The notes below the pieces were generated by a model that saw nothing but the letters and a program-made list of their open reading frames with translations, made no database searches and was not told the DNA's origin. The translations under genes and the position numbers were made by a program. From Antarcticirhabdus aurantiaca (GTDB lineage Bacteria; Pseudomonadota; Alphaproteobacteria; Rhizobiales; Rhizobiaceae), in NCBI RefSeq assembly GCF_009765365.1, contig NZ_VTOM01000007.1, positions 124,001-188,000 of the forward strand: DNA of 64,000 nucleotides, given 5' to 3'. Every line of letters begins with the position of its first letter. The stretch's first letter is position 1. Shown here piece after piece: positions 2,574-11,883 of the stretch.

Positions 2574-3920
2574 TCAACCGGCGGTGGGCGCGTCGGCGCT
2601 TCCGAAGACCCGGGTGAAGATCGTGTCGGCGTGCTTGGTGTGGTAGCCGAGGTCGAACTTCTCGCGGATCGTTTCGGGGCTGAGAGCGGCGGTGACCTCC
2701 GGATCCTTGAGGAGCTCCTCGAGGAAGTCGACGTCCGCCGAGCCGCTGGTCTGATAGCTGTTCCAGACCTTCATCGCGTTGCGCTGGACGAGGCGGTAGG
2801 AATCCTCGCGCGACAGGCCCGCCTGGGTGAGCGCGAGCAGGATGCGCTGCGAATGGACGAGGCCGCCCAGCCGGTCCATGTTGCCGCTCATCCGCTCGGG
2901 GTAGACGAGGAGCTTGTCGACGACGCCGGTGAGGCGCGCGAGGGCGAAGTCGAGCGTGATGGTCGCGTCCGGGCCGATGTAGCGCTCGACCGAAGAATGC
3001 GAGATGTCGCGCTCGTGCCAGAGGGCGACGTTCTCCATGGCCGGCATGGCATAGGCGCGCACCATCCGGGCAAGGCCCGTCAGGTTCTCCGTCAGCACCG
3101 GGTTGCGCTTGTGGGGCATCGCCGAGGAGCCCTTCTGGCCCGGCGAGAAGTACTCCTCCGCCTCCAGGACCTCGGTGCGCTGGAGGTGGCGGATCTCGGT
3201 GGCCAAGCGCTCGATCGAGGAGGCGACGACGCCGAGCGTCGCGAAGTACATGGCATGGCGGTCGCGCGGGATGACCTGCGTCGAGACCGGCTCCACCGCC
3301 AGGCCCATTGCCTTCGCGACGTGCTCCTCGACGCGCGGGTCGATGTTGGCGAAGGAGCCGACCGCGCCCGAGATGGCGCAGGTCGCGACTTCGGCGCGGG
3401 CCGCTTCGAGGCGTTGGCGGCAGCGCTCGAACTCGGCATAGGCGAAAGCGAGCTTGACGCCGAAGGTGGTCGGCTCGGCGTGGATGCCGTGGCTGCGCCC
3501 GATCGTGACGGTGTCCTTGTGCTCGAAGGCCCGGCGCTTGAGCGCCGCGAGCAACGCGTCCATGTCGTTCAGGAGGATATCGGTCGCCCGCACGAGCTGG
3601 ACGTTGAGGCAGGTGTCGAGGACGTCCGACGAGGTCATGCCCTGGTGGACGAAGCGCGCCTCCGGCCCGACGAACTCGGCGAGGTGGGTGAGGAAGGCGA
3701 TGACGTCGTGCTTGGTCTCGCGCTCGATCTCGTCGATGCGCGCGACGTCGAAGGTGGCGGCGCCGCCCTTCTCCCAGATCGTCTTCGCCGCTTCCTTCGG
3801 GATGACCCCGAGCTCGGCCAGCGCGTCGCAGGCATGCGCCTCGATCTCGAACCAGATGCGGAACTTGGTCTCCTGGGACCAGATGGCCGTCATCTCGGGG
3901 CGGGAGTAGCGGGGGATCAT
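2574..3920 (-). CDS. purB: Adenylosuccinate lyase
   Basis: Splits adenylosuccinate to AMP and fumarate, and SAICAR to AICAR and fumarate, in purine synthesis. The 448-residue protein has the fumarase/aspartase superfamily signature [11 protein letters not shown] (about residues 262-272) carrying the catalytic serine loop. It also has the TSSDVLDT and [10 protein letters not shown] motifs (H of SHGIHAEP is a general acid/base region) and the [11 protein letters not shown] block. Length fits the family (about 430-450). It is preceded by about 58 bases to the P1-peptidase gene on the same strand and probably has its own promoter, since its neighbours have unrelated functions. Confidence 0.98.
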
Positions 3921-3978: not shown

Positions 3979-4989
3979 TCAAATCGGAAGGTCGCGCCAA
4001 GCGGGAAGCCGGTCGCCCGCCGCGGCCGTCGCCGCGAAGACCCCGCGCGCGATCGCGCGGGCCATGACGCCGGTCGCGGCGGCGGCGAGTTCGACCCGGT
4101 CCGCGCCGTCTGGCGCCATGCCGCTGGCGCCCGTCGCGACCGCGAAGACGAGATCGCCGTCGAAGTCGGTGTGCGCGGGCCAGAGCGCGTGAACGAACCC
4201 GTCATGCGCTGCCACGGCGAGACGCTTGGCGCCGCCCTTGTCGAGGACCGCGTCCGTCGCGACGATCGCGATGGTCGTGTTCTCGCGGGGCGAGACGGTG
4301 AACTTCGTGCGCGGCGTCGCGGCATCCGCCGGCCAGGGCACCGGCAGGCCCAGCCCGCCGAACTCGGCGCCGACTTCGAAGGGCGCGGCGCGGAAATGGC
4401 GCGTGAGCCCGACGAGCGGCGAGCCGACGGCGTTCACCGCGACGAGGGCGCCGACCGTCACGCCCGAGGGAAGCACGACGGAGGCCGAGCCGAGACCGCC
4501 CTTGACGACGGCGGTCGTCGCGCCGGTGCCCGCGCCGACACTGCCGAGGGCGAAGTCGGCGCTCGCGGCCCGCGCGGCGGCGAGGCCAAGCTCGCGATAC
4601 GGGGCGTGGAGGCCCCAGTCCTTGTCGCCGCCGTTGGCGAGATCGAACAGGATCGCGGCGGGAACGAGCGGCACGCGGAAGCCCGCCACCTCGAAGCCGC
4701 GGCCGGCGGCCCGCAGATGCGCCTGGACCCCGGACGCCGCGTCGAGGCCGAAGGCCGAACCGCCGGACAGGACTAGCGCGTCGATGCCGCTCACCAGCTT
4801 GTCGGGCGCGAGCAGCTCGGTTTCCCGCGTGCCCGGGGCGCCGCCGAGGATCTCCACCGCCGCCGCGCAAGGGCGGTCGAGGAGGAGGGCGGTGACGCCG
4901 CTTTTCAGCCGCTCGTCCTGAGCGTTGCCGACGGATAGGCCGGCGACGTCGGTGACAAGGTTGCGGGGACCGGGAGAAAGCCAGCTCAT
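3979..4989 (-). CDS. P1 family peptidase (DmpA / beta-peptidyl aminopeptidase type)
   Basis: A 336-residue N-terminal-nucleophile hydrolase of the DmpA/BapA/NylC family. Members self-cleave into alpha and beta chains and act on N-terminal D-residues, beta-amino acids or amide oligomers. Recognisable blocks are the N-terminal ITDV-type segment (LVTDVAGLSVGNAQD), LSGGSAFGLDAASGV, and GAGTGATTAVVKGGLGSAS, where the family's self-processing site lies at GS. The start ATG (4989) overlaps the stop of the upstream binding-protein gene in an ATGA arrangement, so the two are co-translated. No signal peptide is seen, so a cytoplasmic location is likely. The natural substrate is unknown. Pairing with a binding protein suggests hydrolysis of an imported amide or small peptide. 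Confidence 0.9.
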   Translation of the reverse strand: MSWLSPGPRNLVTDVAGLSVGNAQDERLKSGVTALLLDRPCAAAVEILGGAPGTRETELLAPDKLVSGIDALVLSGGSAFGLDAASGVQAHLRAAGRGFEVAGFRVPLVPAAILFDLANGGDKDWGLHAPYRELGLAAARAASADFALGSVGAGTGATTAVVKGGLGSASVVLPSGVTVGALVAVNAVGSPLVGLTRHFRAAPFEVGAEFGGLGLPVPWPADAATPRTKFTVSPRENTTIAIVATDAVLDKGGAKRLAVAAHDGFVHALWPAHTDFDGDLVFAVATGASGMAPDGADRVELAAAATGVMARAIARGVFAATAAAGDRLPAWRDLPI

Positions 4990-6083
4990 CGCGTCGCCTC
5001 CGCTGCATCAGTGGGCTGGAAGCGGCCGTCCCGCCATTCGTACAGCCCGAAATGGTCGAGGCTCGAATCCCCCTTCTCGTCGAAGGAGATCGGCCCGAGG
5101 ATCGTCGCGAAGTCGCCGGCCGCCAGGGCATCGCGCAGCTCGGCGGTATCGCCCGCGTCCCGAAGCGCCTGATTCGCGATCTCGACCGCCGCCGTCGCGA
5201 GCCGGCGATAGCCGGCGGCGGACGGATCGACGTCGGCGCCGGGCGCCGCGGGATCGCTCGACGGGTAGAAGCCGCGCTCGGCGACGGCGAGGGTGCCCGC
5301 CGGGAGCTCCGGCGCTTCGCCGGCAGCCCTCTCGTCGAACAGGCTCTCGCTTCCGATAAGCGCGAACGGTGTGCCCGCGGCGGCCGCATCGCGCGCCAGC
5401 ACCGCCGCGTCGCCCGGCCCGGCGGCGATCACGACGTTGCGGGCGCCGGATGCGGCGAGGCGGCCGGCGAGCAGCGACTGGTTCGCCGCTCCGGCCCGGA
5501 GCGTGACGGCGATCGCAGGAGCGCGGCCTTCGGACTCCAGCGCCGCGCGCACCGCGTCGACGAGCGCCCGCGACTCCGTGCCGCCGTCGTCGACGAGGGC
5601 GAAGGACGCTGCCCCCCACCGCTCGCGGATCGCCCGCGCGAGCGCCTGCGCCTCGGCGTCGGAGCGCGGGCCGAGGCGCCAGACGAGAGCGCCGGAGCGC
5701 GCACGGTTGTCGGTGATCCGGTCGGCGCGCACGCCGACCGCGATCGTCGGAATGCCGGCCTCGCCGAGGATCGGGAGGGCGGCTTCCAGCGCTTCGGCGC
5801 ACAGGAAGCCGACGACGATCCGGGCGCCTCCCGCCCGCAGCTGCCGCGCGGCCTCGGCACCGCCTTCGGCCTCGCAGCGGGTGTCGGCCGACAGGATCGG
5901 TGTTCCGCCCGATGCGGCCTGCGCGCCGGCGACGATCTGCCGGCCGAGGAGAGCGACCGGCCCGGTCAAAGGCGCGGCGACGCCGATCGGAGCCGGCGCC
6001 TGCGCGCGCGCCGGGACGGCGGCGAGGCCGAGCACCGAGACGAGGACGAGTGGCGCGGCGAACGTGCGGAAGCAAACCGGCAT
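4986..6083 (-). CDS. ABC-type branched-chain amino acid/amide substrate-binding protein (Leu/Ile/Val-BP fold)
   Basis: A 365-residue periplasmic binding protein. A signal peptide (about residues 1-27, hydrophobic LVLVSVLGLA then ending PARAQA) is followed by the type I periplasmic-binding fold: IGVAAPLTGPVALLGRQI at the start, then repeated Rossmann-like lobes and a C-terminal DEKGDSSLDHFGLYEW. ATG 6083 is chosen because it begins the signal peptide and has AGAAG upstream. Longer in-frame starts add a basic, unconserved leader. It is translationally coupled to the P1 peptidase (ATGA) and divergent from the second binding protein. A palindrome at 6149-6164 lies between. The ligand is unknown. 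It is diverged from the neighbouring LivJ-like protein rather than a simple copy. Confidence 0.85.
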   Translation of the reverse strand: MPVCFRTFAAPLVLVSVLGLAAVPARAQAPAPIGVAAPLTGPVALLGRQIVAGAQAASGGTPILSADTRCEAEGGAEAARQLRAGGARIVVGFLCAEALEAALPILGEAGIPTIAVGVRADRITDNRARSGALVWRLGPRSDAEAQALARAIRERWGAASFALVDDGGTESRALVDAVRAALESEGRAPAIAVTLRAGAANQSLLAGRLAASGARNVVIAAGPGDAAVLARDAAAAGTPFALIGSESLFDERAAGEAPELPAGTLAVAERGFYPSSDPAAPGADVDPSAAGYRRLATAAVEIANQALRDAGDTAELRDALAAGDFATILGPISFDEKGDSSLDHFGLYEWRDGRFQPTDAAEATR

Positions 6084-6230: not shown

Positions 6231-7427
6231 ATGTCTTTCCGCTTGAAGACGGCGCTCGCGCTCGGCGCCGCCCTCATCGCCATGCCGGCGCTCGCCCAGG
6301 ATGCGGCCGCCGTGAAGATCGGTTTCATCGGCGGCCTGACCGGGCCGATCGAGAGCCTGATGCCGCCGATCCAGAAGGGCGCGGAACTCGCCGTCGCGCA
6401 GGTGAACGGCGCCGGCGGCCTGTTCGGCGAGGGCGCGAAGGTCGAGATGATCGTGGCCGACGACGGCTGCGTCGACGCCGCCCGCGCGGCGGACGCGGGT
6501 GACCGCGTCGTCAACACCCAGCAGGCCGTCGGCATCGTCGGCGCCATGTGCTCGGGCGCGACCATCGCTGCCGCCAACGCCGCGGCGATCCCCGCGGGCG
6601 TCGTGATGGTCTCGCCGGCCTCGACCTCGCCGGCCCTGACCTCGCTCGACGACAAGGGCCTCGTCTTCCGCACCGTGCCGTCCGACGCCTATCAGGGCGA
6701 AGTGCTGGCCAAGGCGCTGGTCGACGACGGCATCACCAACGTCGCGGTCACCTACGTCAACAACGACTACGGCACGGCCTTCGCCGACGCCTTCGGCAAG
6801 GCCTTCGAGGCGGCCGGCGGCACGGTCGCCGTTTCGCAGCCACACGAGGACAACCGCGCCGACTACCGGCCGGAGATCGGCTCGCTCGCGTCCAGCGGCG
6901 CCGAGACGCTCGTCGTCCTCGCCTATGTCGACGGCTCGGGCGGCACGATCATGCGCCAGGCGCTCGAGACGGGCGACTTCAACTCGTTCGCCGGCGGCGA
7001 CGGCATGGTCGGTGCTTCGCTGGCGAGCGTCGCCGAGGGCGCCGACAAGCTGATCATGACCCGTCCGGGCGGCGGCACGGCGGCCGGCTACGCGCCCTTC
7101 GAGACGGCGGCCAAGGCCGACCAGCTCGATCCGACCGCGACCTATGCCGCGACGTCCTACGACGCCGCCTTCGCGCTTCTCCTCGCCGTGGAGAAGAACG
7201 GATCGTCCCGCCAGGGTCTCGCCGACGCGCTCAAGGAAGTCGTCAATGCGCCGGGCGAAGTGATCCTGCCGGGCGAGTGGGAGAAGGCCAAGAAGCTCCT
7301 CGCGGCCGGCACCGACATCAACTACCAGGGCGCCTCGGGCGACCTCGAGTTCGACGAGAACGGCGACGTTCCCGGCACCTACGACAGGGTGACGGTGAAG
7401 GACGGCCAGATCGTCGTCCTCCAGTAA
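6231..7427 (+). CDS. Branched-chain amino acid ABC transporter substrate-binding protein (LivJ-like)
   Basis: A 398-residue periplasmic binding protein with a classic Sec signal peptide (residues 1-22, cut after ALAQ) and the type I fold. Landmarks are KIGFIGGLTGPIESL, GAMCSGATIAAANAAA, VMVSPASTSPALT (ligand-binding Ser/Thr region) and VTYVNNDYGTAFADAF. ATG 6231 has GGAG 6-10 bases upstream. It is the most likely periplasmic partner of the LivHMGF membrane complex encoded on the other strand 0.5-4 kb away, because both have the same palindrome upstream and that operon has no binding protein of its own. A strong terminator follows at 7464. The ligand (branched-chain amino acids, amides or urea-like compounds) is not determined. 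Confidence 0.92.
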   Translation: MSFRLKTALALGAALIAMPALAQDAAAVKIGFIGGLTGPIESLMPPIQKGAELAVAQVNGAGGLFGEGAKVEMIVADDGCVDAARAADAGDRVVNTQQAVGIVGAMCSGATIAAANAAAIPAGVVMVSPASTSPALTSLDDKGLVFRTVPSDAYQGEVLAKALVDDGITNVAVTYVNNDYGTAFADAFGKAFEAAGGTVAVSQPHEDNRADYRPEIGSLASSGAETLVVLAYVDGSGGTIMRQALETGDFNSFAGGDGMVGASLASVAEGADKLIMTRPGGGTAAGYAPFETAAKADQLDPTATYAATSYDAAFALLLAVEKNGSSRQGLADALKEVVNAPGEVILPGEWEKAKKLLAAGTDINYQGASGDLEFDENGDVPGTYDRVTVKDGQIVVLQ

Positions 7428-7463
7428 GGACCGGCGCGGGGCTCTGTCCCGACGAGATGCGAG

Positions 7464-7495
7464 AAGGCCGGCGGATCGTCTCCGCCGGCCTTTTT
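7464..7495 (+). terminator. Rho-independent terminator of the LivJ-like gene
   Basis: A perfect 12-bp GC-rich stem (AAGGCCGGCGGA paired with TCCGCCGGCCTT), 5-base loop and a run of five T follow the binding-protein stop codon by 36 bases. Confidence 0.93.
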
Positions 7496-7513
7496 CGTTT
7501 GGCTGCGGCTTCC

Positions 7514-7849
7514 TCAGCCCTCCTTGAGCGGGTCATGGCCCCAGTTCATCAGCGAGTAGCGCCAGTCCGTTTCGCCGATGTCGCCCTTCGGCCTCTGGGC
7601 GAGGTGGCGCTTGATGTAGCCGGTGGTCTTGTTCATCCAGGCCCACTGATCGTCGGTCAGGTCGGCCTTCTTCGTGTGCTTGATCTCGATGATGCGGCGG
7701 CCCGACTTGTGGCCGGTCGATTCGCCCTCGCCGTGGGTATCGCCGACCGACTTCGACTCCTCGCTTTTCAGCCACGTCTCGAGCTTGGCCGGGGTCATGT
7801 TGACCAGCTCCTGCCACTCGCTCCAGATCTCGTCGTGGTCCTTCGTCAT
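7514..7849 (-). CDS. DUF3140 domain-containing protein
   Basis: A 111-residue soluble protein that matches DUF3140 along its length. Recognisable blocks are the N-terminal VNMTPAKLETWL segment, the ESKSVGDTHGEGESTGHKSG block followed by RRIIEIKHTKK, and the C-terminal HLAQRPKGD and WRYSLMNWGHDPLK blocks. The basic SGRRI and RPKG segments suggest nucleic-acid contact, but no function is established for the family. ATG 7849 has a GGGAG about 10 bases upstream. It sits between the liv operon terminator and the convergent binding-protein gene and is not part of either. In my recollection such genes travel with other small DUF proteins, which are absent here. Confidence 0.85.
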   Translation of the reverse strand: MTKDHDEIWSEWQELVNMTPAKLETWLKSEESKSVGDTHGEGESTGHKSGRRIIEIKHTKKADLTDDQWAWMNKTTGYIKRHLAQRPKGDIGETDWRYSLMNWGHDPLKEG

Positions 7850-7883
7850 GGCCGCTCGCGCTCCCGTGATGTTTGGGCGCGAA

Positions 7884-7918
7884 CGGAAAAGCCGCGCCCG
7901 GTGTTCCGGGCGCGGCTT
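7884..7918 (-). terminator. Terminator of the livGFHM operon
   Basis: A 13-bp stem AAGCCGCGCCCGG / CCGGGCGCGGCTT with a 4-base loop. Read on the minus strand it is followed by TTTTCC. It lies just after the livM stop codon (7945) and before the DUF3140 gene. Confidence 0.9.
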
Positions 7919-7944
7919 GTCGCAGGTCGTCGAGAAGCGCTCGT

Positions 7945-9243
7945 TCAGCCGCGGGCGATGCGCTCGGGCAGGACGCCGTGCGGCGCGAAGCGAAGGACGA
8001 GCGTGATCGTCAGGCCGATGACGAAGACGCGCATCTGGAGGGCGCGGCTCTGGAGGTCGGCGGGCGGCACCCAGTCGAACCAGTCCCGGCCGAGATCGCT
8101 GGCGAGGCGGAAGAGGGCGGTGGCCGCCGGCTCCGACATGACCCAGACGATGTAGACGAAGACGGCGCCGAAGATCGCGCCGCGATTGTTGCCGGCGCCG
8201 CCCAGGATCACCATCACCCAGACCAGGAAGGTGTGGTTGAGGTCGACGAAGCCGGCCGGGTCGAAGAGCTGGTTGAAGTGGACCAGCAGCGCGCCGCCGA
8301 TGCCCATCAGCGCGCCGCCGAGCACGAAGATCTCCAGCCGCCGGCCGTTGACGTTCTTGCCCATGGACGCGGCGGCCGCCTCGTTGTCGCGGATCGCCCG
8401 CATCATCCGCCCCCAGGGCGCGTGATAGGCGCGCTGGATGAGGAGGTAGACGACGAGGAGCAGCGCGGCGGACAGGGCGAGGTAGTAGGACCGGCCCCAG
8501 AGGAAGCCGACGTCGAGGGGCGTCGGCACCGGCCAGGGCAGCGGCGACACGGTGAGCGTGCCGCGCGTCAGCCAGTCGGCGTTGCGCAGGAAGGTCTTGA
8601 TGATCTGCGCGATGCCGAGCGTCGCGATGGCGAGGTAGTCCGCGCGAAGCCCGAGGCAGATCTTGCCGATGACCCACGAGATGAGGCCGGCGACGAGCCC
8701 CGCCGCGGCCCAGCCGACAAGTGGATGAAGGCCGAGGCCGCCGATCCAGCCGGCTTGGCGCTCGACGGCCGTGGTCGGCGCGTCGAAGACCGACTGGATC
8801 ACCATGAAGGCGATCGCGCCGGAGATGATGGTGAGCGCGGTCGACAGGCCTTTCGGCACGCCGACCCGCCAGCTCTGCGAGATCAGGCCGACGATGACCA
8901 CCGCGAGGATCAGCCACAGGAAGGCCATTCCGAGCTGCGGCGCCGCGTCGGAGGCCCAGAAGGCGGCGTTGACGGGGAAGGATACGAAGAGCGAGGCGAA
9001 GGATCCCGCGAGGATCAGCCCCATGATGCCGACGTTGAAGAGGCCGGCATAACCCCATTGAATGTTCAGGCCGATCGCGATCAGCGCGTAGGCGAAGGCT
9101 TCCACCGTCATGCGCAGGGCGTAGGGGCTGCCCTGGACGAAGGCGACGAGCAGGATCAGCGCGAACAGGGCGGAAAAGAGAGCCACGTCGCGGCCAAAGC
9201 CGCGCTGCTCGTGGTGGCGGCTGTCGGCGGAAAGTCCGGCCAT
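7945..9243 (-). CDS. livM: Branched-chain amino acid ABC transporter permease LivM
   Basis: A 432-residue inner-membrane permease with about ten hydrophobic segments. The LivM/LivH family core is visible: NIQWGYAGLFNVG, GLRADYLAIATLGIAQI and the EAA-like cytoplasmic loop WGRMMRAIRDNEAAAASMGKNV that docks on the ATPases. It forms the translocation pore with LivH. The start ATG 9243 comes one base after the livH stop, so the two are co-translated. It is the last gene of livG-livF-livH-livM and is followed by a terminator at 7884-7918. An extra stretch of hydrophobic sequence (about residues 100-180) makes it longer than many homologues. Confidence 0.95.
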   Translation of the reverse strand: MAGLSADSRHHEQRGFGRDVALFSALFALILLVAFVQGSPYALRMTVEAFAYALIAIGLNIQWGYAGLFNVGIMGLILAGSFASLFVSFPVNAAFWASDAAPQLGMAFLWLILAVVIVGLISQSWRVGVPKGLSTALTIISGAIAFMVIQSVFDAPTTAVERQAGWIGGLGLHPLVGWAAAGLVAGLISWVIGKICLGLRADYLAIATLGIAQIIKTFLRNADWLTRGTLTVSPLPWPVPTPLDVGFLWGRSYYLALSAALLLVVYLLIQRAYHAPWGRMMRAIRDNEAAAASMGKNVNGRRLEIFVLGGALMGIGGALLVHFNQLFDPAGFVDLNHTFLVWVMVILGGAGNNRGAIFGAVFVYIVWVMSEPAATALFRLASDLGRDWFDWVPPADLQSRALQMRVFVIGLTITLVLRFAPHGVLPERIARG

Positions 9244-9244
9244 G

Positions 9245-10231
9245 TCAGAACACCCTTCCCTTGAAGATGCCGGTCGGCCGGTAGATCAGGACGATGATCA
9301 GGATCACGAAGGGAACGGCGAGGCGGTACTCGTTCGGCACCACGGACAGGTTCGCCGGCAGGTCGAAGGGCAGAACGCCGGCAAAGGGCCGCAGCAGCAC
9401 CGACCAGTTGAACACCGCCAGCGTTTCGGAGAAGCCGACGACGTAGCCGCCCGCCACCGCGCCGTAGGGCTGGCCGATGCCGCCCAAGATCGTCGCGGCG
9501 AAGATCGGCAGGAGGATGTTGTAGGCGAGATCCGGCTGCAGGTTGACGTCGAGCGCCAGCATGACGCCGGCGATCGCCGCGAGGCCGCCGCCGATCACCC
9601 AGGTCGCGTTGACCACGGTGTCGAGCGAGATGCCGGTGACGCGGGCGAGGTCCGGATTGTCGGAGACCGCGCGCATCGCCTTGCCGAGGCGCGAGCGCGT
9701 CAGGAACAGGTGGAGGCAGATCACCGAAAGGGCGGTGAGGATGATCAGCAGCGCCTGCGGTTGCGACAGGACGATGTCCCGGAAGCCGGTCGGGATGCGG
9801 TAGATCACCTTCCGCTCGCCGCCGAGGAGGTCGTAATTGCCCGTGCCGAAGACGATGCGGATGAGGCCCTGAAGCATCAGCGTCACGCCGATCGAGGCCA
9901 TGACGAGCACGACCGGACGCGCGCCGCGGGCGCGCAGAGGCTTGTAGAAGGCCCGATCGAGGCCGATCGTGAACAGCGCCGTCAAGACGAACACGACCGG
10001 CAGGAGCACGATGGCGAGCGGCAGGCCGACGTCGATTCCGAGGCCCGACAGCAATCCGACCAGCACCAGCGTCGCGAAGGCCGCGGCCGTCATCACGTCG
10101 CCGTGGGCGAAGTGGGCGAAGCGCAGGATGCCGAAGATCAGCGTCACCCCGACGGCGCCGAGCGCGTAGATCGAGCCGATGACGAGGCCGCCGATGAGGC
10201 CTCGATTGACAAAGAAAATCAGCTCATCCAA
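9245..10231 (-). CDS. livH: Branched-chain amino acid ABC transporter permease LivH
   Basis: A 328-residue permease with about eight membrane helices. Family hallmarks are GSIYALGAVGVTLIFGILRFAHFAHGD at the N-terminus (residues about 18-42) and the ATPase-docking loop SRLGKAMRAVSDNPDLARVTG. Translation apparently begins at TTG 10231, since the next downstream ATG or GTG codons in frame would delete part of the first helix. No strong ribosome binding site is seen, so the weak start may set a low level relative to the ATPases. It follows livF after 51 bases and abuts livM. Confidence 0.94.
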   Translation of the reverse strand: MDELIFFVNRGLIGGLVIGSIYALGAVGVTLIFGILRFAHFAHGDVMTAAAFATLVLVGLLSGLGIDVGLPLAIVLLPVVFVLTALFTIGLDRAFYKPLRARGARPVVLVMASIGVTLMLQGLIRIVFGTGNYDLLGGERKVIYRIPTGFRDIVLSQPQALLIILTALSVICLHLFLTRSRLGKAMRAVSDNPDLARVTGISLDTVVNATWVIGGGLAAIAGVMLALDVNLQPDLAYNILLPIFAATILGGIGQPYGAVAGGYVVGFSETLAVFNWSVLLRPFAGVLPFDLPANLSVVPNEYRLAVPFVILIIVLIYRPTGIFKGRVF

Positions 10232-10282
10232 GGCGTTGGACCGATGTTTGGTTAAACTTGACGAAGTTGTTCATGTAACGCT

Positions 10283-10987
10283 TCAGCCGCCGAGGAAGCT
10301 CTTGGCGACCTCGGGATCGGCCAGCAGCGCCTCGCCCGTGTCGGTGTAGCGGTTGCGCCCGCTGGCCAGCACATAGCCCTTGTGGGCGATGCCGAGCGCC
10401 TGCTTGGCGTTCTGCTCCACCATGGCCACGGTCACGCCGGTCGCGTTGATCGCGAGGATCCGGTCGAAGATCTGGCTCATGTACATCGGCGAAAGGCCGG
10501 CGGTCGGCTCGTCGAGTAGGATGAGCTTGGGCTCGATCATCAGCGCGCGCCCGACCGCCACCATCTGGCGCTGGCCGCCCGACAGCTCGCCGGCCGGCTG
10601 GTTGCGCTTCTCCTTGAGCGGCGGGAAGATGTCGTAGACGCGGGCCAGCAGCCCGGACCAGTCGTCGCGCCGGACATAGGCGCCCATCTCCAGGTTCTCC
10701 TGGACGGAGAGCGTGCGGAAGACGTTGTGCTCCTGCGGCACGAAGGCCATGCCGAGGCGGGACAGCGCCTCCGGCTTGACGTTCGTGATGTCGTGCCCGT
10801 CGAACTCGATGCGTCCCTGCGTGACGTTCAGGAAGCCGAACATGGATTTGAGCATGGTCGACTTGCCGGCGCCGTTCGGGCCGACGATGACGCCGATCTG
10901 GCCGGCATCGAGCGAGAACTCGACGCCGTTGAGGATGTTCATGCCGCCGTAGCCGGCATGAACGTCGGTCAGCGAGATCAGGCTCAC
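10283..10987 (-). CDS. livF: Branched-chain amino acid ABC transporter ATP-binding protein LivF
   Basis: A 234-residue ABC ATPase. It carries Walker A (GPNGAGKST, about residues 36-44), Q-loop region (FVPQEHNVF), signature LSGGQRQMVAVGRAL, Walker B (LILLDEPTAGLSP) and the switch histidine region replaced by the LivF-type AMVEQNAKQAL. It energises the LivHM pore together with LivG. The GTG start at 10987 overlaps the livG stop (GTGA), a sign of stoichiometric co-translation. Length is typical for LivF. Confidence 0.96.
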   Translation of the reverse strand: MSLISLTDVHAGYGGMNILNGVEFSLDAGQIGVIVGPNGAGKSTMLKSMFGFLNVTQGRIEFDGHDITNVKPEALSRLGMAFVPQEHNVFRTLSVQENLEMGAYVRRDDWSGLLARVYDIFPPLKEKRNQPAGELSGGQRQMVAVGRALMIEPKLILLDEPTAGLSPMYMSQIFDRILAINATGVTVAMVEQNAKQALGIAHKGYVLASGRNRYTDTGEALLADPEVAKSFLGG

Positions 10988-11799
10988 GCGCGCACCTCCG
11001 CGGCCGGACCGTTCGGCGTCGTGGCGTGGCCGGTCGGCGAGCCGCCGAAATAGGCCTCGACCACGGCTTCGTTCGCCTGGATCTCGTCCAGCGTGCCCTG
11101 CATCATCACCTGTCCCGCGGCCATGACGATGACCGGATCGCAGAGGCGGCCGATGAGGTCCATGTCGTGCTCGATGACGAAGAAGGTGTAGCCGCGCTCG
11201 CGGTTCAGCCGCTCGATGTTGCCGGCGAGGTCGTTGAGCAGCGTGCGGTTCACGCCCGCCGCGATCTCGTCGAGAAGCACGACCTTGGCGTCGGTCATCA
11301 TGGTGCGACCGAGCTCCAGGAGCTTCTTCTGACCACCCGACAGGTTGCCGGCGAGCTCGTCGGCGACGTGTCCGATCTTGAGGAAGTCGATGACTTCGTC
11401 AGCCTTCTCGCGGACGGCGCGCTCGTTCTCGCGCACGCGCCCACCGGCCACCCACGTCGCGAGCAGGCTCTCGCCGGCCTGGTGCTCCGGCACCACCATG
11501 AGGTTCTCGCGAACCGTCAGGCGGGAAAACTCGTGCGCGATCTGGAAGGTGCGCAGGAGCCCCTTGCCGAACAGCTTGTGCGGCGGCACCCCCGTGATGT
11601 CCTCGCCGTCGAGGAGGATCTGCCCGGAGCTCGGCGACAGGTTGCCGGCGACCATGTTGAAGAGCGTCGACTTGCCCGCGCCATTGGGCCCGATCAGGCC
11701 GGTGATCGAGCCCCGCTCGACCTTCAGCGAACAGTCGTTGACGGCGACGAAGCCGCCGAACCGGCGCGTGACGTGTCTGACTTCGATGATCGGAGGCAT
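10984..11799 (-). CDS. livG: Branched-chain amino acid ABC transporter ATP-binding protein LivG
   Basis: A 271-residue ABC ATPase with Walker A (GPNGAGKST), Q-loop (RTFQIAHEF), signature LSGGQKKLLELGRTM, Walker B VVLLDEIAAGVN and the LivG-specific FFVIEHDMDLI switch region. ATG 11799 is preferred because homology starts at once (IIEVRHVTRRFGG). An upstream start at 11853 would add 18 residues without family features. It is the first gene of the operon. The palindrome at 11884-11899 overlaps a plausible -35 element (TTGACG, 17-base spacer, TACACG) for this gene. Confidence 0.95.
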   Translation of the reverse strand: MPPIIEVRHVTRRFGGFVAVNDCSLKVERGSITGLIGPNGAGKSTLFNMVAGNLSPSSGQILLDGEDITGVPPHKLFGKGLLRTFQIAHEFSRLTVRENLMVVPEHQAGESLLATWVAGGRVRENERAVREKADEVIDFLKIGHVADELAGNLSGGQKKLLELGRTMMTDAKVVLLDEIAAGVNRTLLNDLAGNIERLNRERGYTFFVIEHDMDLIGRLCDPVIVMAAGQVMMQGTLDEIQANEAVVEAYFGGSPTGHATTPNGPAAEVRA

Positions 11800-11883
11800 G
11801 ACTCTCGGAATGTCGAGGGGAGGTCGCCGAAAAATGCCGGCACCACAACTCATTGCAGGGATTGCGGGCGCGTGTAAACTTTG

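Follow-up and report, generated by a model that had tools for sequence, protein, structure and literature searches.

A solute-binding protein gene overlapping a P1-family peptidase gene in Antarcticirhabdus aurantiaca, and the recurrent proximity of P1 peptidases to ABC importers

Peptidases of family P1 (S58) have been studied as biocatalysts that cleave beta-peptides, carnosine and nylon, and to our knowledge their natural substrates are mostly unknown. The beta-peptidyl aminopeptidases DmpA and BapA belong to this family, and DmpA has a Gly-Ser self-cleavage site with Ser as the nucleophile. Other members, namely ThnT and the NylC/Nyl nylon hydrolases, have Asn-Thr at the self-cleavage site, which in NylC is Asn266/Thr267 (PMC6021441). 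On the import side, the closest described proteins are the LIV/HAAT binding proteins, such as LIVBP of E. coli (1z15/2liv) and the proteins of Brucella (4n0q) and Agrobacterium (Atu2422, 3ip5), with a type-I binding-protein fold. A pore can be encoded apart from its binding protein: the passages of PMC2978685 describe BraC3 of Rhizobium leguminosarum, an orphan HAAT binding protein that works with the Bra pore, is specific for branched-chain amino acids and alanine, and has no peptidase partner in these passages.

Among the titles and abstract openings listed in searches of the open-access literature we recognised no description of a P1 peptidase beside a HAAT or Opp importer. The dmpA gene lies inside a deleted region, for which the passage of PMC5594592 names no importer partner, and neither does the proteome passage of PMC4287336 for Blr5678, an S58 peptidase of Bradyrhizobium. 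Here we analyze a 64,000-nucleotide stretch of the A. aurantiaca genome (hereafter the window), in which a P1/S58-family Ntn peptidase similar to ThnT and NylC is, unlike those enzymes, encoded together with a HAAT-type binding protein.

The gene pair, its peptidase and its conservation

Both genes of the pair lie on the minus strand, the peptidase (336 aa) at 3979..4989 and the binding protein, termed here SBP1 (365 aa), at 4986..6083. The ATG of the peptidase (4989-4987) overlaps the TGA stop codon of SBP1 (4988-4986), which forms an ATGA junction (4986..4989, minus strand) that can be read directly and through which the two genes are presumably translationally coupled. SBP1 is divergent from the gene of a second HAAT binding protein, SBP2 (398 aa, 6231..7427, plus strand; PF13458, E 6.8e-37), the two starts being 147 bp apart. 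Beyond SBP2, the minus strand carries between 7945 and 11853 the genes of two candidate pore subunits matched by PF02653, a LivM-type (7945..9243) and a LivH-type permease (9245..10231), followed by a LivF-type ATPase (10283..10987, an open reading frame with matches in relatives) and a LivG-type ATPase (10984..11853; PF00005 and PF12399). The downstream neighbor of the peptidase, on the same minus strand, is purB (2574..3920; TIGR00928 above the cut-off). An earlier sequence-only reading of this DNA had described the pair, the ATGA overlap and the divergence from a second LivJ-like gene, and its coordinates and all these features proved correct on re-reading.

The peptidase passes the family P1 model (PF03576, Peptidase_S58; E 6.8e-52) with 177.3 bits against a gathering score of 23.9. 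Its top matches among solved structures are ThnT (E 1e-50, nearly full-length) and the nylon hydrolase 9cxr (E 1.1e-40), followed by the L-aminopeptidase/D-esterase 9yys (E 2.6e-32) and then by Nyl12 and NylC; a D-aminopeptidase (5tzb) is found at E 1.2e-7. The pair N237/T238 aligns with the self-cleavage site of ThnT, and self-cleavage is predicted at this position from the alignment. T238 and N186 are kept in all 128 aligned peptidase rows, and position 237 is Asn in 90 of them, Ala in 27, Ser in 10 and His in one. The sequence-only reading had termed the enzyme P1-family and DmpA-like. The family assignment stands, but ThnT and the newer nylon hydrolases come closest to the enzyme, which carries their Asn-Thr motif, and we rejected "DmpA-like" as a precise label because none of its 19 solved matches at E 1e-3 is a chain named DmpA. 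Membership of the DmpA subfamily is likewise not borne out: the enzyme has N237-T238 at the self-cleavage site, and the putative nucleophile is Thr in 128/128 rows, as opposed to Ser in DmpA.

No signal peptide is seen in the peptidase. The earliest column kept in at least 95% of the rows is N10, and because conservation from this residue on leaves a signal peptide no room from this start, the enzyme is probably cytosolic. The listing of Blr5678 as periplasmic in the proteome table of PMC4287336 speaks against this location. The 2D gel table of the same source gives masses of 33744 and 27000 for Blr5678, which could reflect self-cleavage with release of a small chain, provided that a calculated mass stands beside an observed one.

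To follow the pair through related genomes, we kept the best 80 of 171 loci with relatives of the peptidase, a selection that leans toward close relatives. In 47 of these 80 the peptidase gene is preceded, on its own strand, by an SBP1 ortholog. The gene pair, whose conservation the sequence-only reading had proposed to check, is thus conserved across relatives, and chance adjacency was rejected on the same count. The paired loci come from Aurantimonadaceae, Phyllobacteriaceae and Rhizobiaceae, with one from an unplaced alphaproteobacterial MAG (L028). SBP1 has an ortholog in Sinorhizobium meliloti (L026). With the start taken in each locus as the ATG, GTG or TTG nearest to the SBP stop, a choice that favors short gaps, the stop-to-start gap is -4 in 13 pairs, -1 in nine and 0 to 12 bp in 23, i.e. 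within -4 to +12 in 45 of the 47. The junction is no accident, because 22 of the 47 pairs overlap by one or four bases and 23 more have these very short gaps. Two loci from Jiella (L008 and L035) have about 1 kb of extra sequence between the two genes. Short contigs can hide neighbors in such counts, and one locus (L045) starts inside the peptidase gene. In comparison with the single nearest relative (L001), dN/dS is 0.19 for the peptidase and 0.24 for SBP1; the latter value, from this one relative, and 26 invariant columns in 48 rows rule out SBP1 as a decayed pseudogene.

The order sample includes 12 genomes of the window's own family that have a strong match to SBP1, and the peptidase is adjacent to it in eight. 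In the remaining four (G023, G187, G281 and G295) SBP1 lies near purB without an adjacent peptidase, and a relative of the peptidase with 56-58% identity is encoded elsewhere. The coupling is therefore not obligatory.

P1 peptidases beside ABC importers

To examine other families of the order, we took by a fixed rule the first-printed peptidase of each, with the window's own family excluded. The resulting sample covers 31 of 42 matching families and leaves out 11 with weaker matches (f4, f5, f7, f17, f19, f23, f24, f37, f38, f39 and f47); all counts given here at the order level come from this rule-based sample only, earlier loci from other families having been chosen partly after the adjacency was seen. 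In 16 of the 31 families the gene of a HAAT binding protein is no more than 3 kb from that of the peptidase (on the same strand in 15), and in the other 15 families this range contains none. The stretch fetched around each peptidase includes LivH in 13, and the complete order livH-livM-livG-livF-SBP-peptidase is found on one strand in 11 (L090, L094, L101, L102, L104, L105, L108, L110, L111, L112 and L142). The HAAT link is absent from all 34 control stretches (Fisher p 5e-7), which are up to 18 kb long, lie about 17 to 60 kb away on the contigs of the fetched loci and are not matched one-to-one with the 31; a further control (L167) was dropped from the original 35, as it overlaps a test locus (L114). 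An Opp-type neighbor was found in two of the 31 families, and neither type in 11. When mapped on the peptidase tree, the label of a HAAT neighbor requires at least six changes on supported branches, and this neighbor has therefore been gained or lost several times.

For the class level, the sample consists of the first 20 places printed for genomes outside the order; three of the 19 planned controls had no suitable stretch, which left 16. No HAAT binding protein was found near the peptidase in any of the 20 loci. Opp/Dpp genes (SBP_bac_5 or DppB-type) occur within 3 kb in seven of them and within 7 kb in nine, the latter against one of the 16 controls (p 0.02), which makes the link to Opp genes beyond the order a modest one. 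Six of the seven neighbors within 3 kb share the strand of the peptidase, at a distance of no more than 91 bp; the remaining one (L182) is a weak match on the opposite strand. Thus, P1 peptidases of this clade are repeatedly found beside importers, which belong to two unrelated types (HAAT within the order, Opp/Dpp chiefly beyond it), and the conserved SBP1-peptidase pair sits within a wider, non-obligatory association of P1 peptidases with ABC importers. Such neighbors match what a system of uptake followed by cleavage predicts, and the enzyme of the window probably digests something that the cell takes up.

The alternative with the best prospects, to which we give an appreciable though clearly minor chance, is that the two genes adjoin through an inherited arrangement of genes around purB, with SBP1 as an orphan importer subunit and the peptidase as a housekeeping aminopeptidase that act independently. 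The gene purB is present in the fetched stretch in 15 of the 31 other families, about as often as a HAAT binding protein, and part of the importer linkage may therefore be inherited order. It also lies near the orphan SBP1 in the four genomes mentioned above, where SBP1 persists without an adjacent peptidase, and there are peptidases near purB with no HAAT binding protein within 3 kb (e.g. L093, L098, L115 and L117). Inherited order fits less well, however, with the overlap or near-contact of stop and start in 45 of the 47 pairs, and it leaves unexplained that some relatives of the peptidase without a nearby purB adjoin Opp importers instead. Function accounts better than gene order alone for an importer neighbor that persists through a change of importer class. 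As for purB itself, its place beside the peptidase is probably inherited gene order, and the gene would be outside the system.

Two further features of these loci were observed. P1-linked liv loci encode, between LivF and the binding protein, a small DUF6867 protein (PF21741, tested in L103 only, at L103:7073-7489), and similar proteins were seen in 16 loci. In seven of 14 Rhodobacterales loci (L047, L048, L050, L055, L059, L060 and L064; a count without a matched control) the gene of an SSADH-type aldehyde dehydrogenase starts at most 0.9 kb downstream of the P1 peptidase. The type was called by a score of at least 770 bits to the L055 protein, the sole one tested against NCBIfam (SSADH, 702 against a cut-off of 646). 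Weaker aldehyde dehydrogenase matches occur in two of the 16 class-level controls and in none of the 34 order-level controls. The downstream SSADH-type gene gives a hint of the release of a GABA-like omega-amino acid, with which it would fit.

The binding protein, its pocket and its pore

SBP1 passes the HAAT/family-4 model (PF13458, E 1.1e-23) with 84.9 bits against 31.7, and has, as judged by eye, a Sec-type signal peptide. An AlphaFold2 model calculated from 48 SBP1 sequences, i.e. that of the window and 47 orthologs, has a pLDDT of 90.6 and matches LIVBP (2liv) with a Z-score of 33.2 and an rmsd of 3.3 over 319 residues at about 24% identity, the predicted fold being the type-I fold of the LIV/HAAT proteins. 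Both cysteines of LIVBP (C70 and C95) are present as well.

In order to compare the pockets, we followed through the alignment alone the ligand residues of LIVBP, which we take to be Ser79, Thr102, Asp121, Tyr150, Tyr202 and Glu226. In SBP1 of the window these positions are A96, R119, S141, E170, G222 and E246, so that only the acid at position 226 is retained, and SBP1 does not qualify as a LIV amino-acid binding protein. Throughout the 48 rows the position of Thr102 is occupied by Arg (R119 in the window), whereas Asp121 is retained in only two and Ser79 is Ser in five; Tyr202 is usually lost (replaced by Asp in 26), Tyr150 is Tyr in 21, and the acid at 226 is Glu in 45. Judged from these alignments, SBP1 has exchanged the amino-acid pocket for a conserved, non-canonical one with an invariant arginine, and its ligand would be anionic. 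The sequence-only reading had held that loss of the ligand-pocket residues would tell against it. Most of the LIV-type residues are indeed gone, but a conserved set, Arg119 foremost, stands in their place. In the four SBP1 proteins without an adjacent peptidase (L083, L084, L085 and L152) Glu246 is replaced by Asp, compared with the predominant Glu of the paired set; this may be a single change, three of the four forming one clade.

Binding proteins from other peptidase loci show a different picture. Those that group with LIVBP have Ser79, Thr102, Asp121, Tyr150 and Asp226 in 24 of 24 cases. Among 10 divergent ones Thr102 is Thr in four, and Arg is found only in L089, a locus of another family that also has, as in the window, an ATGA junction to the peptidase. 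Because all 24 LIVBP-grouped proteins keep Thr102 and only one of the 10 divergent proteins has Arg, the arginine pocket appears to be no general mark of the peptidase partners, and to judge by their residues the systems without SBP1 may import ordinary amino acids. The same could be proposed for the window, with the peptidase freeing amino acids from imported peptides or amides and a ligand that is nothing exotic. We regard this explanation as unlikely: it draws on the canonical pockets just described and on the match of the L101 binding protein to the branched-chain model PRK15404 (355 bits, below the cut-off of 477), but has against it the SBP1 lineage itself, with Arg for Thr102 in every row, Asp121 all but lost and Asp for Tyr202 in over half of the rows.

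In a quick tree, whose deep forks are weak and whose long branches are flagged, the SBP1 sequences form a separate clade (26 rows, SH-aLRT 100), and the other peptidase-linked binding proteins mostly fall with LIVBP. The tree separates these clades, and it does not uphold the binding proteins of P1-linked liv operons in other families as direct orthologs of SBP1. In one locus (L095:9413-11765) LivF and the P1 peptidase are separated by tandem genes for two HAAT binding proteins, one canonical and the other divergent. This arrangement suggests tandem duplication as the origin and is possibly similar to the ancestral one, a point that the tree does not resolve.

SBP2 has the canonical amino-acid pocket, with S79, T102, D121, Y150, Y202 and an acid at 226 in seven of seven SBP2 rows. 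Together with LivGFHM (6231-11853) it makes up a HAAT system, in which SBP2 is distant from LIVBP on the tree (branch of 1.48) and canonical in its pocket residues. According to the sequence-only reading, SBP1 would borrow this nearby LivHMGF pore. In the window, where LivGFHM is near the pair, this is possible, but the arrangement is not general: LivM and SBP2, with LivH where matched, are beside the pair in 10 of the 47 loci, SBP2 alone in one (L028), and neither LivH nor LivM was matched in 37 within the fetched flanks, some of which are on short contigs. The gene order of the window recurs in another family (L113), but there the peptidase-adjacent binding protein is outside the SBP1 clade. 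A pore in trans, as with BraC3 and Bra, is proposed for SBP1 in relatives that lack the cluster. At E 1e-10 the genome of A. aurantiaca has six LivH-like places, and in a set of 13 family genomes there are 3 to 15 in 12 and one in a genome of 1.5 Mb, counts that may include other permeases. That SBP1 is a sensor or scavenger feeding no transporter, as the 37 loci without a LivH or LivM match might suggest, is very improbable in view of these LivH-like places in 12 of the 13 genomes.

A proposed uptake-and-cleave unit

We propose that SBP1 and the peptidase form a dedicated uptake-and-cleave unit, a proposal for which we see about equal chances of being right or wrong. SBP1 would be exported to the periplasm and would bind there a small anionic ligand, probably a carboxylate-bearing aminoacyl amide or dipeptide held by the invariant Arg119. 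It would then deliver this ligand to a HAAT pore of the LivHMGF type, that of the adjoining cluster here. The P1 peptidase, made simultaneously with SBP1 by virtue of the ATGA overlap, would cut itself between Asn237 and Thr238, and Thr238 would then act in the cytosol on the imported compound and release its N-terminal residue, the ligand of SBP1 thus being the substrate of the enzyme. An uptake-and-cleave system for a non-standard amide or peptide was also what the sequence-only reading had suggested. Conservation of the pair, the importer linkage and the non-canonical pocket speak for it, but the DmpA label, the nearby pore as a general feature and an obligatory coupling had to be given up.

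A broader and more tentative reading, which we consider clearly less likely than not, makes the P1 peptidases of this clade the cytosolic partner in a modular system that scavenges amides and dipeptides of the omega-aminoacyl (beta-alanyl or GABA-like) type. The importer would be interchangeable: Rhizobiaceae and related bacteria would use a HAAT system whose reshaped binding protein bears the arginine, the rest of the order would use other HAAT systems, and Opp/Dpp systems would serve mainly beyond the order. The freed omega-amino acid would enter succinate-semialdehyde metabolism. If true, this reading would give the P1 family a natural role. The reshaped pocket of SBP1, with its invariant arginine, could extend the HAAT binding proteins to a further class of ligands, and a conserved binding protein made beside a P1 enzyme is a ready probe, since whatever SBP1 catches is a candidate natural substrate of its peptidase.
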